Shown piece after piece: positions 2,469 to 33,481 of a DNA stretch of 33,540 nucleotides. The stretch lies in IMG/VR virus record IMGVR_UViG_3300036861_000219, positions 1 to 33,540 of that record; one strand, given 5' to 3'. Under the pieces are notes generated by a model. It did not search any database. It was not told the DNA's origin and saw nothing but the letters and a program-made list of their open reading frames with translations. How positions within the stretch are numbered: position 1 is the stretch's first letter; each line of letters opens with the position of its first letter. Origin of the DNA: a virus. Made by a program: the position numbers and the translations under genes.

Positions 2469-2737
2469 TGAATCACCTCGGCAGGCTTTCGCCCACTTAT
2501 CCGCGCCCGCCGCTCGCCGGTGTCCGCACCCGCGCCGAGCTCGACGACGAGATCGCCAGCGAGAACCGCGCCATCTCCCGAATCGAGCAGACCATCGACG
2601 AGTACGTCCCGCCGACGTGTGAGTTCTGCACGGCCCCGGCGATCGACGAGTGCTCCCTCTGTGAGCGGCCGATGTGTGAGGACGACTCGGTCGTCGAGAG
2701 CGTCTGCATCGAGTGCGACGCCGAGGTGCTGTCGTGA
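2468..2737 (+). CDS. Zinc-ribbon-like protein with a helical N-terminal region
   Basis: This 89-residue protein has a helical region rich in Glu and Arg (about residues 18-45), then a C-terminal block with CEFC, CSLC, C and CIEC pairs (about residues 52-84), which looks like a two-zinc cross-brace or B-box-type fold. ATG at 2468 shares its A with the stop of the previous gene. It is the second zinc protein in a row. Function unknown. Confidence 0.6.
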   Translation: MNHLGRLSPTYPRPPLAGVRTRAELDDEIASENRAISRIEQTIDEYVPPTCEFCTAPAIDECSLCERPMCEDDSVVESVCIECDAEVLS

Positions 2738-3411
2738 GAGTCCACCGACGGGTGGATCAGGGCATCGGGCATGTTAGCCCCGGAGGCCCCGGTGTAGGAC
2801 CCGAGGGTCGGCGGACGGCCAACGCGACCCTCGGGCAGGCACCGCGGGCAGCGGTTGTCGCCCTCGTCATCGCGGGGCTGCTCGCCACGGCGAGCCCGGC
2901 GACCGCGACCACATGGAGTCCCGGCGAGTCCGGTGTCTCACCCGCGTACACGGTGCCGATCCACGTCGTCGACACGGTGATCGGGACGCTGCGGCTGGAG
3001 AACCGGCCGCTATGGCGACAGGCGCGGAACGAGGCGCTCGCCGAATGGGGCATCCCGTTCATGGTGACGCGGCTGTCGGAGTCGTCGCTGCCCTACACCT
3101 TCGACGACAACATCGGCACGGTCGGCTATGACGGGATGCTGATCCCCGACGCGATCCTGCTGGTCCGTAACCGGATGTCCTACTCGACCGAGCAGGCCGG
3201 GTACTCGGCCACCGTCAACGGCGGGATCGCGGTGTTCACGCCCTGGGCTCCGTGGTGGAAGCCGAACGCTGCGATGTCCGGTGTCATCGCCCATGAGGTC
3301 GGACACGCCCTGGGCTTCTATCACGGCGGGACCGGCGTCATGGCCGGAGCCTTCCGAGTGAACGACGAGGAGCGCGCGCTCGCCCAGACCTACTACGGGG
3401 TCGCGCCGTGA
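2734..3411 (+). CDS. Exported metzincin-type zinc metallopeptidase
   Basis: The product has 225 residues. After a 38-residue basic leader comes a hydrophobic stretch (residues 39-52, AAVVALVIAGLLAT) and an Ala-rich cleavage region ending near ATA57, a plausible Sec signal. The mature part carries HEVGHALGFYH at 187-197, the full metzincin zinc site HExxHxxGxxH (His187, Glu188, His191, Gly194, His197), followed by a Met-turn candidate Met203 in GVM. This fits a matrixin-like secreted peptidase cleaving an extracellular or cell-wall protein. GTG at 2734 overlaps the previous stop and has a GAGG ribosome site; GTG at 2752 is possible. An exported peptidase is an unusual cargo for a phage early operon. 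Its substrate is unknown. Confidence 0.75.
   Translation: MRVHRRVDQGIGHVSPGGPGVGPEGRRTANATLGQAPRAAVVALVIAGLLATASPATATTWSPGESGVSPAYTVPIHVVDTVIGTLRLENRPLWRQARNEALAEWGIPFMVTRLSESSLPYTFDDNIGTVGYDGMLIPDAILLVRNRMSYSTEQAGYSATVNGGIAVFTPWAPWWKPNAAMSGVIAHEVGHALGFYHGGTGVMAGAFRVNDEERALAQTYYGVAP
2800..2835. other. Perfect 11-bp hairpin inside the metallopeptidase leader
   Basis: CCCGAGGGTCG at 2800-2810 pairs perfectly with 2825-2835 across a 14-nt loop. It lies within the part of the gene that encodes the long basic leader, before the signal sequence. No T run follows, so it is a weak terminator candidate. It could attenuate translation or transcription into the peptidase. Confidence 0.6.
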
Positions 3412-9908: not shown

Positions 9909-9950
9909 GCCGTGGCGCCGGGAGCGCCCGACGACGACGGAGGTGCAAAC

Positions 9951-10217
9951 GTGCGACAAGCAGTCGTGTACGCGGCCGCCATCACCGCGACCTTGGCAGG
10001 GCTGGTGATGGGGCCACCGGAGGCACTCGCAAGCGCCCGGTTCGCCGATTCTCGGGCAACAGCGTCGGGCACGCAACAGCAGCAGATCAGGGAGCGAACG
10101 TGCAGGTTCCAGTGGGTCGATCGGGGAACATGGACCGCCCGCGAGGAGCGTCGAACCCTGGCGTGCGTCGTGGATCGGTTCGGCCCCGTCGACGGCGGGA
10201 TACCCAAGGTCGAGTAG
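9951..10217 (+). CDS. Exported lysozyme-like protein, N-terminal part ending at an in-frame TAG
   Basis: The product has 88 residues. GTG at 9951 is chosen because GGAGGT precedes it by seven bases. A signal sequence (AVVYAAAITATLAGLVMG) ends at an ALA-S type cleavage site near residue 29. The mature part has two Cys (TCRFQW and LACVVDR) and stops at TAG (10215-10217) right after GIPKVE. The same frame then continues without break for 74 codons as a lysozyme-like catalytic domain (see the next entry). Alone this product would lack the catalytic Glu and is unlikely to be an enzyme. Confidence 0.6.
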   Translation: MRQAVVYAAAITATLAGLVMGPPEALASARFADSRATASGTQQQQIRERTCRFQWVDRGTWTAREERRTLACVVDRFGPVDGGIPKVE

Positions 10218-10442
10218 GTCGGGGCGTGCGAGTCCGGGTGGAACCGGCTCGCGTCCAACGGCGGCTCATACCTCGGCCTGTTCCAGCACGCGGCGTCGGA
10301 TTGGCCGAGCCGCGTGGCATGGGCCATGCCGGACGGCTGGCGCGTCGGCCCCTGGTCGAGCTGGCGAAACAGCAGAGCGCAGATCGTCGTCACGGTGCGG
10401 ATGGTTCACGCCTCCGGCTGGGGTGCCTGGTCGTGCGCCTGA
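10218..10442 (+). pseudogene. Transglycosylase/lysozyme-like catalytic domain downstream of the amber codon
   Basis: In frame with 9951-10217, these 74 codons encode VGACESGWNRLASNGGSYLG, then LFQH, with a Trp-rich end (GWRVGPWSSW, SGWGAWSCA) and a TGA stop. ACESGWN with a catalytic Glu, followed by GSYLGLFQ, is the hallmark of the SLT/Rpf-type transglycosylase fold cutting peptidoglycan. No usable in-frame start lies before the motif, so translation needs TAG readthrough. Joined, the two halves make a normal 163-residue secreted enzyme with one extra residue, often Tyr in relatives, at the TAG. Explanations are a nonsense mutation, programmed readthrough, a suppressor-carrying host or a base error. 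TAG ends many intact genes here, so genome-wide recoding is excluded. Confidence 0.75.
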
Positions 10443-10455
10443 CAGGGAGGAACGG

Positions 10456-10728
10456 ATGAAACGAGCTTTGGCAACGCTGCTCATCGGACTGACCATGATG
10501 GTCGGCACGATGGCCGCACCGGCGCAGGCGCTCGATCGGGTCCGGTGCGAGATTCCGGGCAACTACCGGGTCGTCTGCTACAACACCACGCCGTATCGGG
10601 TCCACGTGAGGCTGCGCATCTTCACGACCAACGGGCTGTACGTGCGCTACTTCACGATCTTCAACTACCGCAAGGTCGTCTACAGCCCGGCCTACATCAA
10701 TCGGATTGCCTGGCGCTGGTGGTTCTAG
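10456..10728 (+). CDS. Small secreted cationic aromatic protein
   Basis: This 90-residue protein has a clear Sec signal (MKRALATLLIGLTMMVGTMA, cleavage after AQA at residue 25). The mature 65 residues hold ten Arg, one Lys and only one Asp and one Glu, and about 15 aromatic residues, ending WRWWF. Two Cys (31 and 41) could form a disulfide. Beta-strand-like alternation suggests a small beta protein or a membrane-active peptide. ATG at 10456 follows AGGGAGG. It sits 13 nt after the amber-split lysozyme, also exported, so the two may act together at the cell surface. No family recognised. Confidence 0.65.
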   Translation: MKRALATLLIGLTMMVGTMAAPAQALDRVRCEIPGNYRVVCYNTTPYRVHVRLRIFTTNGLYVRYFTIFNYRKVVYSPAYINRIAWRWWF

Positions 10729-25535: not shown

Positions 25536-26525
25536 GTGGCGCTGAACAAGAAGATCGCGGTCGTCGCGTTCGACAAGCAGACCTCGTTCGGCACGCTGGC
25601 CGTGGCCCGCAAGTACGGGTTCGGCGTGCGGTCGGGCTCCATCCTGGACGCGGGGGTTGACCAGGCGTACGAGGAGCTCACGACCGCCAACCGTTTCCCT
25701 CCATCGGCCTACCGATCCGGCGCGCTGTGGACGGTGGATTGTGTCTCGCGGGCGTGGCCTCGCTCCGTCGTCATGCTGCTCGAGAACGCGCTCGGGTCAC
25801 GCAACACGACCGGCGCCGCCGACCCGTTCACCCACACGATCACCCCGGCTGATGCCCCCGGCTACTTGACCGCGGCGACCCGGCTCGACACGGAGTACCA
25901 CAAGATCAGGGATTGTCGTGTCGACGTGTGGTCGCTCTCATGGAACCAGGCCGAACCATGCGAGATGGGCGTGCGGATGATGGGCACCGTGGGGTCGCCG
26001 TTCACGACCTCCGGCGACCCGACTACCGACGACTCCGACCAGCAGTCGTTCTATCCCGCGGGCGGCGTGTTCCAGATCGACTCGGATTCAATCACCCCGG
26101 TTACCGCCGACATCACCGGCGGCACCATCACGATTGCCAACCATCTCGAGCCGGTGCGTGTCTCCCGGTCGCTCGAGCCCATCGACGTGTGGCCAGGCCT
26201 GCACGAGATTACCGTCACGTTGCGGCTGATCCCGACCAATACGACCCTATGGCGCTCGGTCGTGACCGGCTCCGATGCCGGGACCGCGCTGGGGAACGCG
26301 CCAGTGTACGGATCGTTCCACACGCTGTTCACGATTACGGCCGGAACCCGTGACCTCGACCTGACCGCCACGCGAATCGCGTTCATGGGCGATTACCCGG
26401 AGCCGGACCCGGCGGGCGGGCCGGTCGAGATCGAGCTCACCGGCACGGTGGTCAAGCCCGCCGCGGCGGCGTTCACCGCCGTCGTCCACAACCAGGAGGC
26501 GGCATCCAACTACGCGGGCTCGTAG
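25536..26525 (+). CDS. Major tail (tube) protein
   Basis: The product has 329 residues. Start MALNKKIAVVAFDKQTSFGT, a beta-sandwich tube domain, and the motif LEPVRVSRSLEPIDVWPGLH followed by strands up to VEIELTGTVVKPA are typical of siphovirus tail tube proteins. The protein stacks as rings to form the tail tube. It directly precedes the tail chaperones and tape measure. The GTG lies one base after the stop of the preceding gene, whose AAGGAGG supplies the ribosome site. Confidence 0.82.
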   Translation: MALNKKIAVVAFDKQTSFGTLAVARKYGFGVRSGSILDAGVDQAYEELTTANRFPPSAYRSGALWTVDCVSRAWPRSVVMLLENALGSRNTTGAADPFTHTITPADAPGYLTAATRLDTEYHKIRDCRVDVWSLSWNQAEPCEMGVRMMGTVGSPFTTSGDPTTDDSDQQSFYPAGGVFQIDSDSITPVTADITGGTITIANHLEPVRVSRSLEPIDVWPGLHEITVTLRLIPTNTTLWRSVVTGSDAGTALGNAPVYGSFHTLFTITAGTRDLDLTATRIAFMGDYPEPDPAGGPVEIELTGTVVKPAAAAFTAVVHNQEAASNYAGS

Positions 26526-26846: not shown

Positions 26847-27202
26847 TGGCGTCCTGGCGTGTGGTCGGCGTCATGCTCGACGGGACGAAGCACGAGGCCG
26901 TCGGCGTCTACATGGCGCTATCGGATCGCGTCGCTTTCGAGCGGCTCTACAACGTGTCGGTCGTTGACCTCCGACGCGAGGCGAGACTGATCGACGACGA
27001 AGGCAACGCCCAGGCGCCGGTACGGAACCTGCGCGAGGAGCAGACCGCGTATTTCGCATGGCGCACGCTCACGCGGGGCGACTGTCCGGTCGGTGGGTTC
27101 GAGGACTTCCTCGAGACCGTCGAGGAGATCAAGCTCGAAAGACTGGACGGCCCCGTGGACCCTACGGACCCGGCTCCGGCGTCTGGCGAGTCGCCGTCTT
27201 AG
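26846..27202 (+). CDS. Tail assembly chaperone, short (G-type) product
   Basis: This 118-residue protein has a helical core (VAFERLYNVSVVDLRREARL, EEQTAYFAWRTLTRGDCPVG, GFEDFLETVEEIKLERLDG) and a Pro-rich tail. It lies between tail tube and tape measure, the fixed place of lambda G-like chaperones that fold the tape measure. Its 3' end overlaps a downstream frame open in -1 register that yields the longer GT-type product. ATG shares its A with the previous stop. Confidence 0.75.
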   Translation: MASWRVVGVMLDGTKHEAVGVYMALSDRVAFERLYNVSVVDLRREARLIDDEGNAQAPVRNLREEQTAYFAWRTLTRGDCPVGGFEDFLETVEEIKLERLDGPVDPTDPAPASGESPS

Positions 27203-27342
27203 CGGCGGACCTGCACATCCCACCGAACGCGATCCTCGAGGCGCCCGTCGAGGTGCAGCAGGCGCTCGGGGAGTACCACGATCAGCAGGTCGAACAGCTC
27301 GAACAGGCGATGCGGGAAGCGGAGGCGAGGCGGCGTGGCTAG
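27154..27342 (+). CDS. Tail assembly chaperone, T-type extension reached by -1 frameshift
   Basis: The -1 frame relative to the gene at 26846 is open to a TAG at 27340-27342. It encodes WRVAVLAADLHIPPNAILEA and a charged end EQLEQAMREAEARRRG, as seen in actinophage T-type chaperone extensions. No good start sits at its head. The best slip candidate is CCCC at 27151-27154, where tRNA-Pro on CCC can re-pair with CCC one base back. A slip there makes a 165-residue fusion. The extension overlaps the next gene by 8 nt. Confidence 0.65.
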   Translation, partial: RGPYGPGSGVWRVAVLAADLHIPPNAILEAPVEVQQALGEYHDQQVEQLEQAMREAEARRRG

Positions 27343-27727
27343 CGGTGGCACTGTCACGGTGCAGGGGCTCAATGAGTTCAGGGCCGCGGTGCGCAAGGCG
27401 GCCGGTGCCACGCCCCGTGAGATACCGCTCGCGTTGAAACGCGCGGGCGTCCCAATCCTCATGCAGGCTGCGGCGACCGCTCCACACCGCTCGGGCCGCC
27501 TGGCGGCCGGGTACAAGGTTGCGGTGCGAGGGACCACGGCGAGCATCGTGTCGTCGGTGCCCTACGCGGGTGGTGCGGAATGGGGATCGCGCGGCAAGTG
27601 GGCCGGATTCGCGGGTGCCCCGCCCCGCATCGTGTGGCCCGCCGTCGAGGCGCAGGAGGGCAACGTCGAACTCATCCTTGAGAACGAGCTCCGCAACATC
27701 GTCGGCATCTACGGCTGGGCGGTCTAG
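27335..27727 (+). CDS. HK97 gp10-like tail completion protein
   Basis: This 130-residue protein follows the family pattern: GLNEFRAAVRKAAG and a helical start, then TAPHRSGRLAAGYKV, VSSVPYAGGAEWGSRGKW, and PRIVWPAVEAQE. The fold belongs to the neck or tail completion group. In most phages this gene precedes the tail tube; here it lies after the chaperones and before tape measure, an unusual order. GTG at 27335 overlaps the previous frame by 8 nt. Confidence 0.7.
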   Translation: MASGGTVTVQGLNEFRAAVRKAAGATPREIPLALKRAGVPILMQAAATAPHRSGRLAAGYKVAVRGTTASIVSSVPYAGGAEWGSRGKWAGFAGAPPRIVWPAVEAQEGNVELILENELRNIVGIYGWAV

Positions 27728-27744
27728 ACCACGCACGGTCTAGA
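27723..27744. terminator. Hairpin shared by two convergent stop codons
   Basis: TCTAGACC and GGTCTAGA pair over 8 bp around a 6-base loop, ACGCAC. One arm contains the TAG of the plus-strand gp10-like gene and the other contains the TAG of the minus-strand ORF at 27740-27871. It could end transcription of either, though no T run is present. Confidence 0.45.
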
Positions 27745-27871
27745 ACACGGCGTCGACGAGGTGCCGGTAAGCGTCGAACCGGAGCAGCAGCACCGATAGG
27801 ACAGCGGTCACCGCCGCCACGGCCAGGATCAGCACCAGCACCCGGCGGTCGGCCCATGCACGCGCGAACAT
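27740..27871 (-). CDS. Possible minus-strand single-pass membrane peptide
   Basis: On the minus strand, this 43-codon frame reads MFARAWADRRVLVLILAVAA, then VTAVLSVLLLRF and a polar end. It is a well-formed membrane segment with a basic lead, ending in TAG. It occupies nearly the whole 157-nt gap before tape measure, where the plus strand shows no gene. No ribosome site is seen before its ATG, so expression is uncertain. It would be the only minus-strand gene outside the lysogeny region. Confidence 0.35.
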   Translation of the reverse strand: MFARAWADRRVLVLILAVAAVTAVLSVLLLRFDAYRHLVDAVF

Positions 27872-27884
27872 GGAGGGATCGTAG

Positions 27885-29747
27885 GTGGCCGGACGCTCGT
27901 TGACCATCACCTATATGGCCGACGCCGATAAGGTGCTGGCGGCTCAGAAGCAGATTGACGCCGGGCACTCGACGCTGGACTCGTCGACGAAGAAGACCGG
28001 CGGCGTGTTCTCCTCGACCTTCGGCTCGGTCATGCCGCTCGCGGCGGCTGCGGCCGGGGCGGCCGTCCTCAAGTTCGGCGCGGATTCAATCAACGCGTTC
28101 AAGGAGTCCGAGGCGGCGATGGCGCAGACCAACGCCGTCCTCAAGTCGACGGGCGGCGTGGCGAACGTGACGGCCGACGATGTGCTGAAACTCGCTCAGA
28201 AACTCCGCGATGTCTCGGGTGCCGACGATGAGGCGATCCAGGCGTCGGAGAACCTGCTGCTGACGTTCACGCAGATTCGCAACGAGGCGGGCAAGGGTAA
28301 CGACGTGTTCAACCAGACCGAGGCCGCGGTCCTCGACATGGCGACGTCGATGAACAACGGCGCCATTCCGTCGATGGAAGACCTCAACTCGAAGACGATC
28401 CTCGTCGGCAAGGCCATGAACGACCCCATCAAGGGGCTGACCGCGCTGACCCGTGTCGGTGTGACTTTCAAAGACGGCCAGCGCGAGCAGATCGCGGCGA
28501 TGGTCGCTGCGGGCGACACGATGGGCGCGCAGAAGATCATCCTCGCCGAGCTGACGAAAGAGTTCGGCGGGTCGGCCAAGGCCGCGGGCGACACGTTCGC
28601 CGGTGCGCAGGCCAAGGCCGCGCAGAAGATCGAAGACCTGCAGGAGAAGATCGGCGGCATCCTGCTGCCGGTGCTGACCGACCTGGCCGATACGTTCGCC
28701 GACATCCTGACGAAGGCCGGGCCACTGATCGAGCTGATCGGGCACGCGTTTGCCGCGGCCGTGGAGCTCGCGTCGGAGAACCTGAAACAGATGGTCGGGC
28801 CGCTGGAATACCTGGTCGACCTCATCCCCCAGACGAGCAAGGCGACCGATGAGGGGGGCGCGTCGTTCTTCGAGTACGGGAAGGCAATCGTCAACCTCGG
28901 GAACCCGATCACGACGTTCACGAACCTGCGCGGCAAGCTGAACGACGTCGTCGACATCGCCACGCTGTCCCTCGGTGAGGAGAAGGACGCGCTCGAGGAG
29001 CTGCCGTCGACGATGAAGGGCGTCGAGTCGAGCTCGCGCGGACTGTACGAGCAGCAGCTACGCGGTGCCGACGCCACCGAGGAGTGGGACTCGGCGACGA
29101 AGAAGCTCACGGAGTCCATGCGCGATCAGCGGCTCGCCCAGCTCGCGCTTGCCGACTCGTTCCTGGGCATCATCGAGTCCGCGCGGACGCTGGCCGAGGA
29201 TCAGAAGGAACTCAACCGGCTGCAGGAGAAGGGCCGGGACAACACGAAGGCGTACGACGACGCTGTGCTGCAGGTCATCGAGGATCAGATCGCCCTCGAG
29301 GAGTCGATCTTCTCCTACGGCAAAGAGCTCGTCGACGCGGGTGAGAAGCAGCGCAACGTGGAGAAGGCGATCCGTGATGCGGCACGGGAGGCGGGTGTCA
29401 ACAAGGACGCCGTGCATGACTTGATCGACGAGATCAGGGATTACATCCATGAGCTGAACCGCATCCCCAAGGAGGTCATCACACACATCGGCACGGTGAC
29501 GACGGGCGGCTGGCAGACCGGCGGCGGGTTCCAGCACGGCGGCGTCGTCGAGAAGACCGGCATGGCGCTGGTTCACAAGGGCGAGGTCTTCTCCGGCGTC
29601 AACAACGAGATGGGCTTCGGCGGCCCCACGCTGAACGTGAGCATCGGCACCGTCGTCGGCCCCGGTGGGATCGAGGAGGTCGCCGACATCCTCCTGCGGG
29701 AGCTGCAGAAGCACGGCATCCGCAACGTGACCGCTGGTATCCCGTGA
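27885..29747 (+). CDS. Tape measure protein
   Basis: This 620-residue protein has an Ala-rich helical body with a hydrophobic segment near 50-62 (MPLAAAAAGAAVLKF) and long coiled coils around 110-260 and 410-520, ending in a Gly-rich region and HGGVVEKTGMALVHKGEVFS, seen at the C-terminus of many tape measures. It sets tail length and is delivered through the tail. At roughly 0.15 nm per residue the tail would be near 93 nm. GTG at 27885 has GGAGGG upstream. Confidence 0.9.
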   Translation: MAGRSLTITYMADADKVLAAQKQIDAGHSTLDSSTKKTGGVFSSTFGSVMPLAAAAAGAAVLKFGADSINAFKESEAAMAQTNAVLKSTGGVANVTADDVLKLAQKLRDVSGADDEAIQASENLLLTFTQIRNEAGKGNDVFNQTEAAVLDMATSMNNGAIPSMEDLNSKTILVGKAMNDPIKGLTALTRVGVTFKDGQREQIAAMVAAGDTMGAQKIILAELTKEFGGSAKAAGDTFAGAQAKAAQKIEDLQEKIGGILLPVLTDLADTFADILTKAGPLIELIGHAFAAAVELASENLKQMVGPLEYLVDLIPQTSKATDEGGASFFEYGKAIVNLGNPITTFTNLRGKLNDVVDIATLSLGEEKDALEELPSTMKGVESSSRGLYEQQLRGADATEEWDSATKKLTESMRDQRLAQLALADSFLGIIESARTLAEDQKELNRLQEKGRDNTKAYDDAVLQVIEDQIALEESIFSYGKELVDAGEKQRNVEKAIRDAAREAGVNKDAVHDLIDEIRDYIHELNRIPKEVITHIGTVTTGGWQTGGGFQHGGVVEKTGMALVHKGEVFSGVNNEMGFGGPTLNVSIGTVVGPGGIEEVADILLRELQKHGIRNVTAGIP

Positions 29748-31814: not shown

Positions 31815-32468
31815 GTGGCTGACACCGAGTTCATCACCGCCCGCTATCCCGAGAACGAGATGCCGAAGACGCAGAACCGCAAGGAGATGATGACCCGCGT
31901 CCGCGGCTTCCTCGATGGTCCGGGGAGACTCCGTGAGGCCGGTGGAGACTGGTCTCCTTGGCGAACGGAACCCGAGCTCCTGGATCGGATCGCCACGCGC
32001 ACCGGCCGGATGGGAGTGGGTCCCAAGCTCATCGTTCAGAAGCGCTCGAACCGAGCGCAGCTTTCCATCCGCGAAGTCAAGGCGATCCCCGATCTCGGTG
32101 CCGCCCCGGAGATCGAGAAGATTCACGCCGCGGTCTGGGCCGAGTTCGACGTCCGATCCGGTGGGCTATGGCTCTGCCGATTCATCGACGGTACGCATTC
32201 CGTCTCCAAGCACGGATACCTCAAGGATGACCCGAACGGCTGGAAGGGCGCCGCCGAGGACATCTTTGTCATCAACGGTGGGATGGCCGACCTGGTCAAG
32301 GTGGCCGAGTTCATCGTCAATGGAACCAAGCACGGAGCGTTGGAGGCGGCGACGGTGATCGTGGACCGGCAGATTTGGACCCCATCACAGGGCTGGCATG
32401 CCTACACCGGGGAGCAGCACTTCCATGTTCACGCCGATGTCCTCGGTGGCCATGCCTGCACCCCCTGA
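31815..32468 (+). CDS. Endolysin candidate with an M15-like peptidase C-terminus
   Basis: The product has 217 residues. The C-terminal half has DGTHSVSKHGYLKDD with His128 and His133, GAAEDIFV with Asp149, the conserved RQIWTPSQGWHAYTGEQ, and HFHVHADV with His204 and His206. This IW...GW..Y.G..H..HvHvd pattern is typical of D,D-carboxypeptidase-like phage lysins that cut the peptidoglycan peptide. The N-terminal third is basic and might bind the wall. It opens the exit block, followed by three small membrane proteins. The motif is not an exact M15A match, so a catalytic role is probable but unproven. Confidence 0.55.
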   Translation: MADTEFITARYPENEMPKTQNRKEMMTRVRGFLDGPGRLREAGGDWSPWRTEPELLDRIATRTGRMGVGPKLIVQKRSNRAQLSIREVKAIPDLGAAPEIEKIHAAVWAEFDVRSGGLWLCRFIDGTHSVSKHGYLKDDPNGWKGAAEDIFVINGGMADLVKVAEFIVNGTKHGALEAATVIVDRQIWTPSQGWHAYTGEQHFHVHADVLGGHACTP

Positions 32469-32640: not shown

Positions 32641-32915
32641 ACACACCCGAGGCTCAGGCCGCCCGGATCAACCGGCTCCGCAACTGGGTAGTGGCGCTCG
32701 TGTTCGTCATCATCCTCGCGGGGTCCATCGGCCCGCTGACGGTCATCACGTATTTCAACCGAGCCTCGGCCGCTCAACAGGTCGACCTCACGTGTCAGGG
32801 CCTCGAGAACCAGGACACGATGCTGCGCGCTTTCCGCACGGCGTTCGAGGAGGGGCTTGGAGTTCCCTGGAGATTCCCGATACCGGAGGTGCCGCCCGAG
32901 TGCGATGGTTCCTGA
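32637..32915 (+). CDS. Membrane protein, possible spanin-like or holin partner
   Basis: This 92-residue protein has one membrane segment at about 16-40 (NWVVALVFVIILAGSIGPLT) with a short basic cytoplasmic start and an outside part holding Cys residues (LTCQGLENQD, VPPECDGS). ATGA overlap with the preceding gene. In the exit block, likely a lysis accessory protein. No family recognised. Confidence 0.5.
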   Translation: MNTPEAQAARINRLRNWVVALVFVIILAGSIGPLTVITYFNRASAAQQVDLTCQGLENQDTMLRAFRTAFEEGLGVPWRFPIPEVPPECDGS

Positions 32916-33481
32916 TCTCCCTCATCCTGGCGACGATCGCGTCGCTCGCCTTCGTTGCCGCTGGTGGGGAGTCCGCGAGGGCACCATCACCTTGCACTTG
33001 GACCGGCACTCCCGAGCGCGACGTGAAGACCGGGACCGCGGGCGCGAACGTCCTGTGCGCCGAGCCGGGCAACGACTTCATCCACGGTGCCGCGGGCAAC
33101 GACGTCCTCCGGGCTGGCAAGGGCCGCGACGTGGCGGTGGGCGGCGGCGGCCGCGACGTGCTGCGCGGTGGTCGTGGACGCGACCGGCTGTTCGCCGTGG
33201 ACGACCAGGGCGGGGAACGCATCATCGGCGGGCGTGGCAACGACCAGTGTTTCGTCGATCCCGGCGACGTCGTGTTCGGATGTGAGCAGACCTTTCGATC
33301 GAGTGAGCCCGAGATGGCGAGCGCGCTCGGTCAGTCGCTCCGTTCCGTGATGGAGATCGTCGAGGAGGTCACGGTCTCCCCGACCGTGGCGCCACCGCCG
33401 GTCATCGTCACCTCGACCATCACCCTGCCGCCCTGCAATCAGGGACCACCCGAACCACCACCGTTCTGTGGAGGAGGTTAG
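32900..33481 (+). CDS. Exported RTX-like glycine-rich protein
   Basis: The product has 193 residues. GTG at 32900 follows GGAGGT. The signal peptide VRWFLISLILATIASLAFVA is cleaved near residue 26. The mature part carries RTX/hemolysin-type repeats, GNDFIHGAAGNDVLRAGKGR, then DVLRGGRGRDRLF and IIGGRGND (about 54-116), which in this family bind calcium in a beta roll. Basic residues replace several acidic ones, so calcium binding is uncertain. The end is Pro-rich with Cys (LPPCNQGPPEPPPFCGGG). It lies in the exit block before the two-helix membrane gene. A role at the outer cell surface or in lysis is possible. Confidence 0.7.
   Translation: MRWFLISLILATIASLAFVAAGGESARAPSPCTWTGTPERDVKTGTAGANVLCAEPGNDFIHGAAGNDVLRAGKGRDVAVGGGGRDVLRGGRGRDRLFAVDDQGGERIIGGRGNDQCFVDPGDVVFGCEQTFRSSEPEMASALGQSLRSVMEIVEEVTVSPTVAPPPVIVTSTITLPPCNQGPPEPPPFCGGG

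Follow-up and report, generated by a model that had tools for sequence, protein, structure and literature searches.

An amber codon in a putative secreted Rpf-like gene of one metagenomic phage sequence is probably an ordinary nonsense change

The reading frame at positions 9951-10442 (+ strand) of the IMG/VR virus record IMGVR_UViG_3300036861_000219, which would encode a secreted Rpf/transglycosylase-like protein, is broken at codon 89 by one in-frame TAG. With a probability of about 0.93 we consider this TAG to be an ordinary nonsense change in one assembled sequence, either as a natural null or as a base error. The initial annotation had offered a fresh nonsense mutation or a base error as a fallback, and this is supported by the presence of CAG in close relatives and by an intact gene in all 11 relatives found. 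The DNA studied is a single assembled record of 33,540 bases, the whole of which is referred to below as the window.

The interrupted reading frame and its relatives

Translation of the frame, which begins with GTG, yields 88 residues, the TAG (10215-10217, + strand) and a further 74 residues containing VGACESGWN and GSYLGLFQ, followed by a TGA at 10440-10442. Frame translation and comparison with relatives revealed no indel in the frame, the TAG being its only lesion, which confirms the earlier description of a frame split by a single in-frame amber codon. A good ribosome site had also been described: the ribosome-binding-like sequence GGAGGTG (9940-9946, + strand) indeed lies ahead of the GTG start, and both are kept in the two close relatives. 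The remaining parts are on the same (+) strand. Residues 1-28 (9951-10034) resemble a signal peptide, as judged from a hydrophobic stretch ending near ALAS. The conserved N-terminal part of the mature protein, C51RxQ...WTxREExRT..C72V (10089-10214), is defined by invariant columns in a 12-member alignment and precedes the TAG. The putative catalytic part (10218-10439), with the CES motif that includes Glu94 and with GLFQH, follows the TAG and is indicated by profile matches and invariant residues. Upstream of the gene are a RusA-type resolvase gene and a single small gene; the lysis-like region lies elsewhere, close to the end of the window. Directly downstream, 10456-10728 encodes a small secreted basic protein that gave no family match; a 49% identical relative occupies a similar place in the related record G001.

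Virus contigs were scanned three times with the protein or with alignments of it as query, and 11 distinct relatives were found. All of them have an uninterrupted single frame spanning the N-terminal conserved and catalytic parts, and none has a stop at the TAG site. Their alignment extends across both halves, which shows that the frame is genuinely coding before as well as after the TAG. The nearest relatives, IMG/VR contigs 3300026116_000073 and 3300036850_000038 (90% and 74% identical, respectively), read CAG (Gln) at the codon that is TAG in the window, a difference of one C-to-T transition, and two more distant ones have TCG (Ser). Across the family the residue at this position is Gln, Ser, His or Arg and never a stop, so that there is no conserved readthrough signal. 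Among the relatives found the TAG is private to the window sequence, and a DNA pattern with CAG at codon 89 matched just the two known relatives. The comparison with homologs proposed in the initial annotation thus returned 11 full-length proteins without the stop, with CAG in the two closest; homologs starting after the TAG, the case that it had set against its own reading, were looked for, and none of the 11 starts there. A genome scan gave one remote match, to a Verrucomicrobia MAG (27% identity over a short stretch). In contig IMGVR_UViG_3300036860_000210 (1498-2460, - strand) the Rpf-like gene shares a single frame of 320 residues with an HNH-endonuclease-like part ahead of it; a homing endonuclease may have been inserted where the gene starts, or the frame may be open by chance.

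A putative Rpf-like muralytic enzyme

Judging by its sequence motif, we take the protein to be a putative Rpf-like muralytic enzyme. Pfam family PF06737 (transglycosylase-like, Rpf catalytic domain) matches residues 87 to 162 of the read-through protein at 18.6-19.1 bits, below the 27-bit Pfam cut-off, and is matched by 6 of the 12 family members (best E 0.0013). A PHROG annotated as transglycosylase matches the read-through protein at E 0.023. NCBIfam model NF052397 (aggregation-promoting factor C-terminal-like domain) is matched by 7 of the 12 members (best E 6e-5), the match of the window member being short and partial (17.2 bits, below the 40-bit cut-off). With a profile of the 12 family members RpfC structures were the only solved ones matched at E up to 10, and RpfB was among four matches when a smaller family alignment served as profile. 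C93-E94-S95, containing the putative catalytic glutamate of a C-E-S/G motif, is invariant in all 12 sequences, as are an Asn, a Gly-Leu..Gln-His segment and several Trp positions. The proposal of a secreted lysozyme-like enzyme therefore finds its support in the motif, the Rpf/transglycosylase-like models being matched below their cut-offs. Annotated phages searched with the read-through protein gave no match, and hence there was no annotation to borrow. An AlphaFold model built from the 12 sequences is of moderate confidence (pLDDT 68.6) and gave no significant match in fold searches; an earlier structure prediction from 3 sequences was poor.

Genome context and the use of TAG in the window

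The major capsid protein is ~30-36% identical to those of Rhodococcus, Gordonia and Mycobacterium phages, a likeness that suggests an actinobacterial host. The alignment of related record G001 continues from the window's end into its start, and that of G002 wraps at about 27,600-27,900 in the window; since the related genomes are circularly permuted, the window (33.5 kb) is probably near complete. All four related records of 32-35 kb carry an intact Rpf-like gene, as do seven other phage contigs; the gene was undetected in the 38.4-kb related record G014. Its presence in all four smaller records and its apparent lack in the larger one indicate that it may be accessory.

Three other genes of the window deserve mention. 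Next to small membrane proteins, 31815-32468 encodes a protein with S..H..G and HFHVH motifs that matched no Pfam or PHROG family and has three relatives in other virus contigs (66-81% identity); it may be the real endolysin. A secreted metalloprotease-like protein with the zinc motif HEVGHALGFYH, unusual cargo for a small phage, is encoded at 2713-3411, and a protein with RTX calcium-binding nonapeptide repeats, conserved in G001 (65% identity), at 32792-33481.

The use of TAG was established by a curated gene-by-gene check in which 59 window genes were compared with homologs. This check replaced a six-frame stop survey, which was dropped as too noisy because overlapping non-coding frames stay open in 67% G+C DNA. 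The 59 genes end in TGA (40), TAG (15) or TAA (4), and every TAG that had been named as the end of an intact gene proved to be one. An internal stop was found in 9951-10442 alone, and the homolog comparison revealed no other split gene among the 59. The TAG-ended genes 25536-26525 and 27199-27342 each have a relative ending at the same residue with TAA, and 10456-10728 has one ending there with TGA. No tRNA or tmRNA gene, and hence no suppressor tRNA, was found in the window, which may miss a small part of the genome.

Origin of the amber codon

The TAG, the intact relatives, the CAG at the homologous codon and the lack of any other broken gene are direct observations. They would best be explained if an ordinary accessory gene, encoding a secreted peptidoglycan-hydrolase-like protein in a probable group of actinobacteriophages, had undergone a single C-to-T change, from the glutamine codon CAG to TAG, in one assembled sequence. 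In the structural model the TAG codon (model residue 46) lies inside the helix (model residues 40-52) that bears the putative catalytic Glu, so that the product as written, an 88-residue stub ending in the middle of this predicted helix and before the catalytic glutamate, would be without active site and the enzyme would be lost. We infer here that the protein is a secreted, active enzyme, that its function is lost and that the change is recent, the origin being either a recent natural null allele of the phage or a base error in the metagenomic consensus. Among single substitutions in these genes about 3.1% produce a stop, and among the C-to-T/G-to-A changes 4.2%; one stop therefore needs just a few dozen unselected changes or errors.

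Between the two origins we lean towards a natural recent nonsense allele, such that the phage truly carries the TAG and has lost an accessory enzyme. A single transition suffices, no other gene is broken, and the gene may be dispensable, as part of the related records, the 38.4-kb one among them, gave no sign of it. Its intact presence in all four 32-35 kb records and the seven further contigs speaks against this origin, and a natural null would be exceptional because every other relative found has kept the gene intact. A base error or a minority variant in the consensus is a serious but distinctly less probable origin. It would fit a lesion of one base in a single assembled virus contig of which an independent copy was not found. 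However, no further frame damage is present in the 33.5 kb, which argues for a low error density. Over all window genes, 0.1 stops are expected at an error rate of 1e-4 and about one at 1e-3; given the former value, base error alone is not very likely a priori. As a mechanism, one nonsense change in a single phage sequence from a metagenome matters little; if the allele is real, the enzyme would seem dispensable.

Codon differences from the nearest relative number 7 synonymous and 12 nonsynonymous before the TAG, and 13 and 5, respectively, after it (dN 0.052, dS 0.366). When the second half was polarised with a third sequence, 5 synonymous and 2 nonsynonymous changes fell on the window branch and 7 and 5 on the sister branch. 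Since divergence of the C-terminal half is mostly synonymous, there is no sign of long decay. A recent mutation, a base error and a product still in use would all leave the sequence without decay, and the test has little power because the stop may be younger than most of the branch.

Readthrough, restart and reassignment

The initial annotation had proposed that low-level or suppressor-dependent readthrough supplies small amounts of the full-length enzyme as a control. In its favour, the frame is open and conserved after the TAG, and family members differ at this position, which should therefore accept whatever residue is inserted. If full-length enzyme were still made by readthrough and used, the second half would likewise be expected to show purifying selection, which is not specific to this case; an open frame is just as expected after a recent mutation. 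Against the proposal, the stop is absent from all 11 relatives, the close ones having CAG at a position that is not conserved, the remaining TAG codons end genes normally, and neither a suppressor tRNA nor any tRNA or tmRNA gene was found in the window. These results weaken the proposal to the point that we consider it improbable, and still more so its variant in which a newly acquired amber codon of this lineage is read through by the specific host, so that the dosage of a cell-wall enzyme is controlled. Readthrough has nothing in its favour that would not equally accompany any recent nonsense change.

Restart of translation cannot rescue the enzyme, because the in-frame start codons after the TAG come beyond the putative Glu94: the first ATG/GTG/TTG is the GTG at 10314 (residue 122), and a CTG is present at residue 110. 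The earlier statement that no start codon serves the second half thus holds, there being none between the TAG and Glu94. Two separate proteins, a secreted 88-residue N-terminal one and an independently started C-terminal domain, would account for the open frame in both halves, but the missing start codon, the one-protein layout in 11 of 11 relatives and the presence of conserved cysteines and further invariant residues both before and after the TAG make this extremely improbable. Restart and an independent C-terminal protein were both rejected on the start-codon positions and the layout of the relatives.

In some gut phages TAG is reassigned to an amino acid throughout the genome (translation table 15; PMC11210395), and CAG to TAG is the kind of change that such genomes carry; here such a reassignment has next to no likelihood, and the earlier exclusion of recoding stands, because TAG ends 15 genes, several with relatives stopping at the same residue by TAA or TGA, one internal TAG is present in 59 genes and no suppressor tRNA was found in the window.

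Comparison with known systems

The window resembles phages in which TAG is recoded to Gln (Crassvirales and others, PMC11210395) in having TAG at a Gln position, but differs from them in that this is a single instance, that TAG is a stop elsewhere and that the window is without a suppressor tRNA. As a by-product the analysis brought to light a small family of secreted Rpf-like proteins that is poorly annotated and is encoded by a group of probable actinobacteriophages. With the catalytic domain of RpfB/RpfC (PF06737) this family shares the CES/CE motif with the catalytic Glu, the N..Y.G..Q segment and the GWGAW end, all of which align. Unlike in that domain, the conserved N-terminal C..Q..WT.REE.RT..C part falls outside the matched stretch, and it is absent from existing profiles. 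The window protein also scores under the Pfam cut-off and under that of NF052397, the likeness to the latter consisting of the matches by 7 of 12 family members. The closest systems are contigs 3300026116_000073 and 3300036850_000038, which share with the window a nearly equal length, the ribosome site, the start region and the domain order, but carry the gene intact, with a glutamine codon in place of the TAG.
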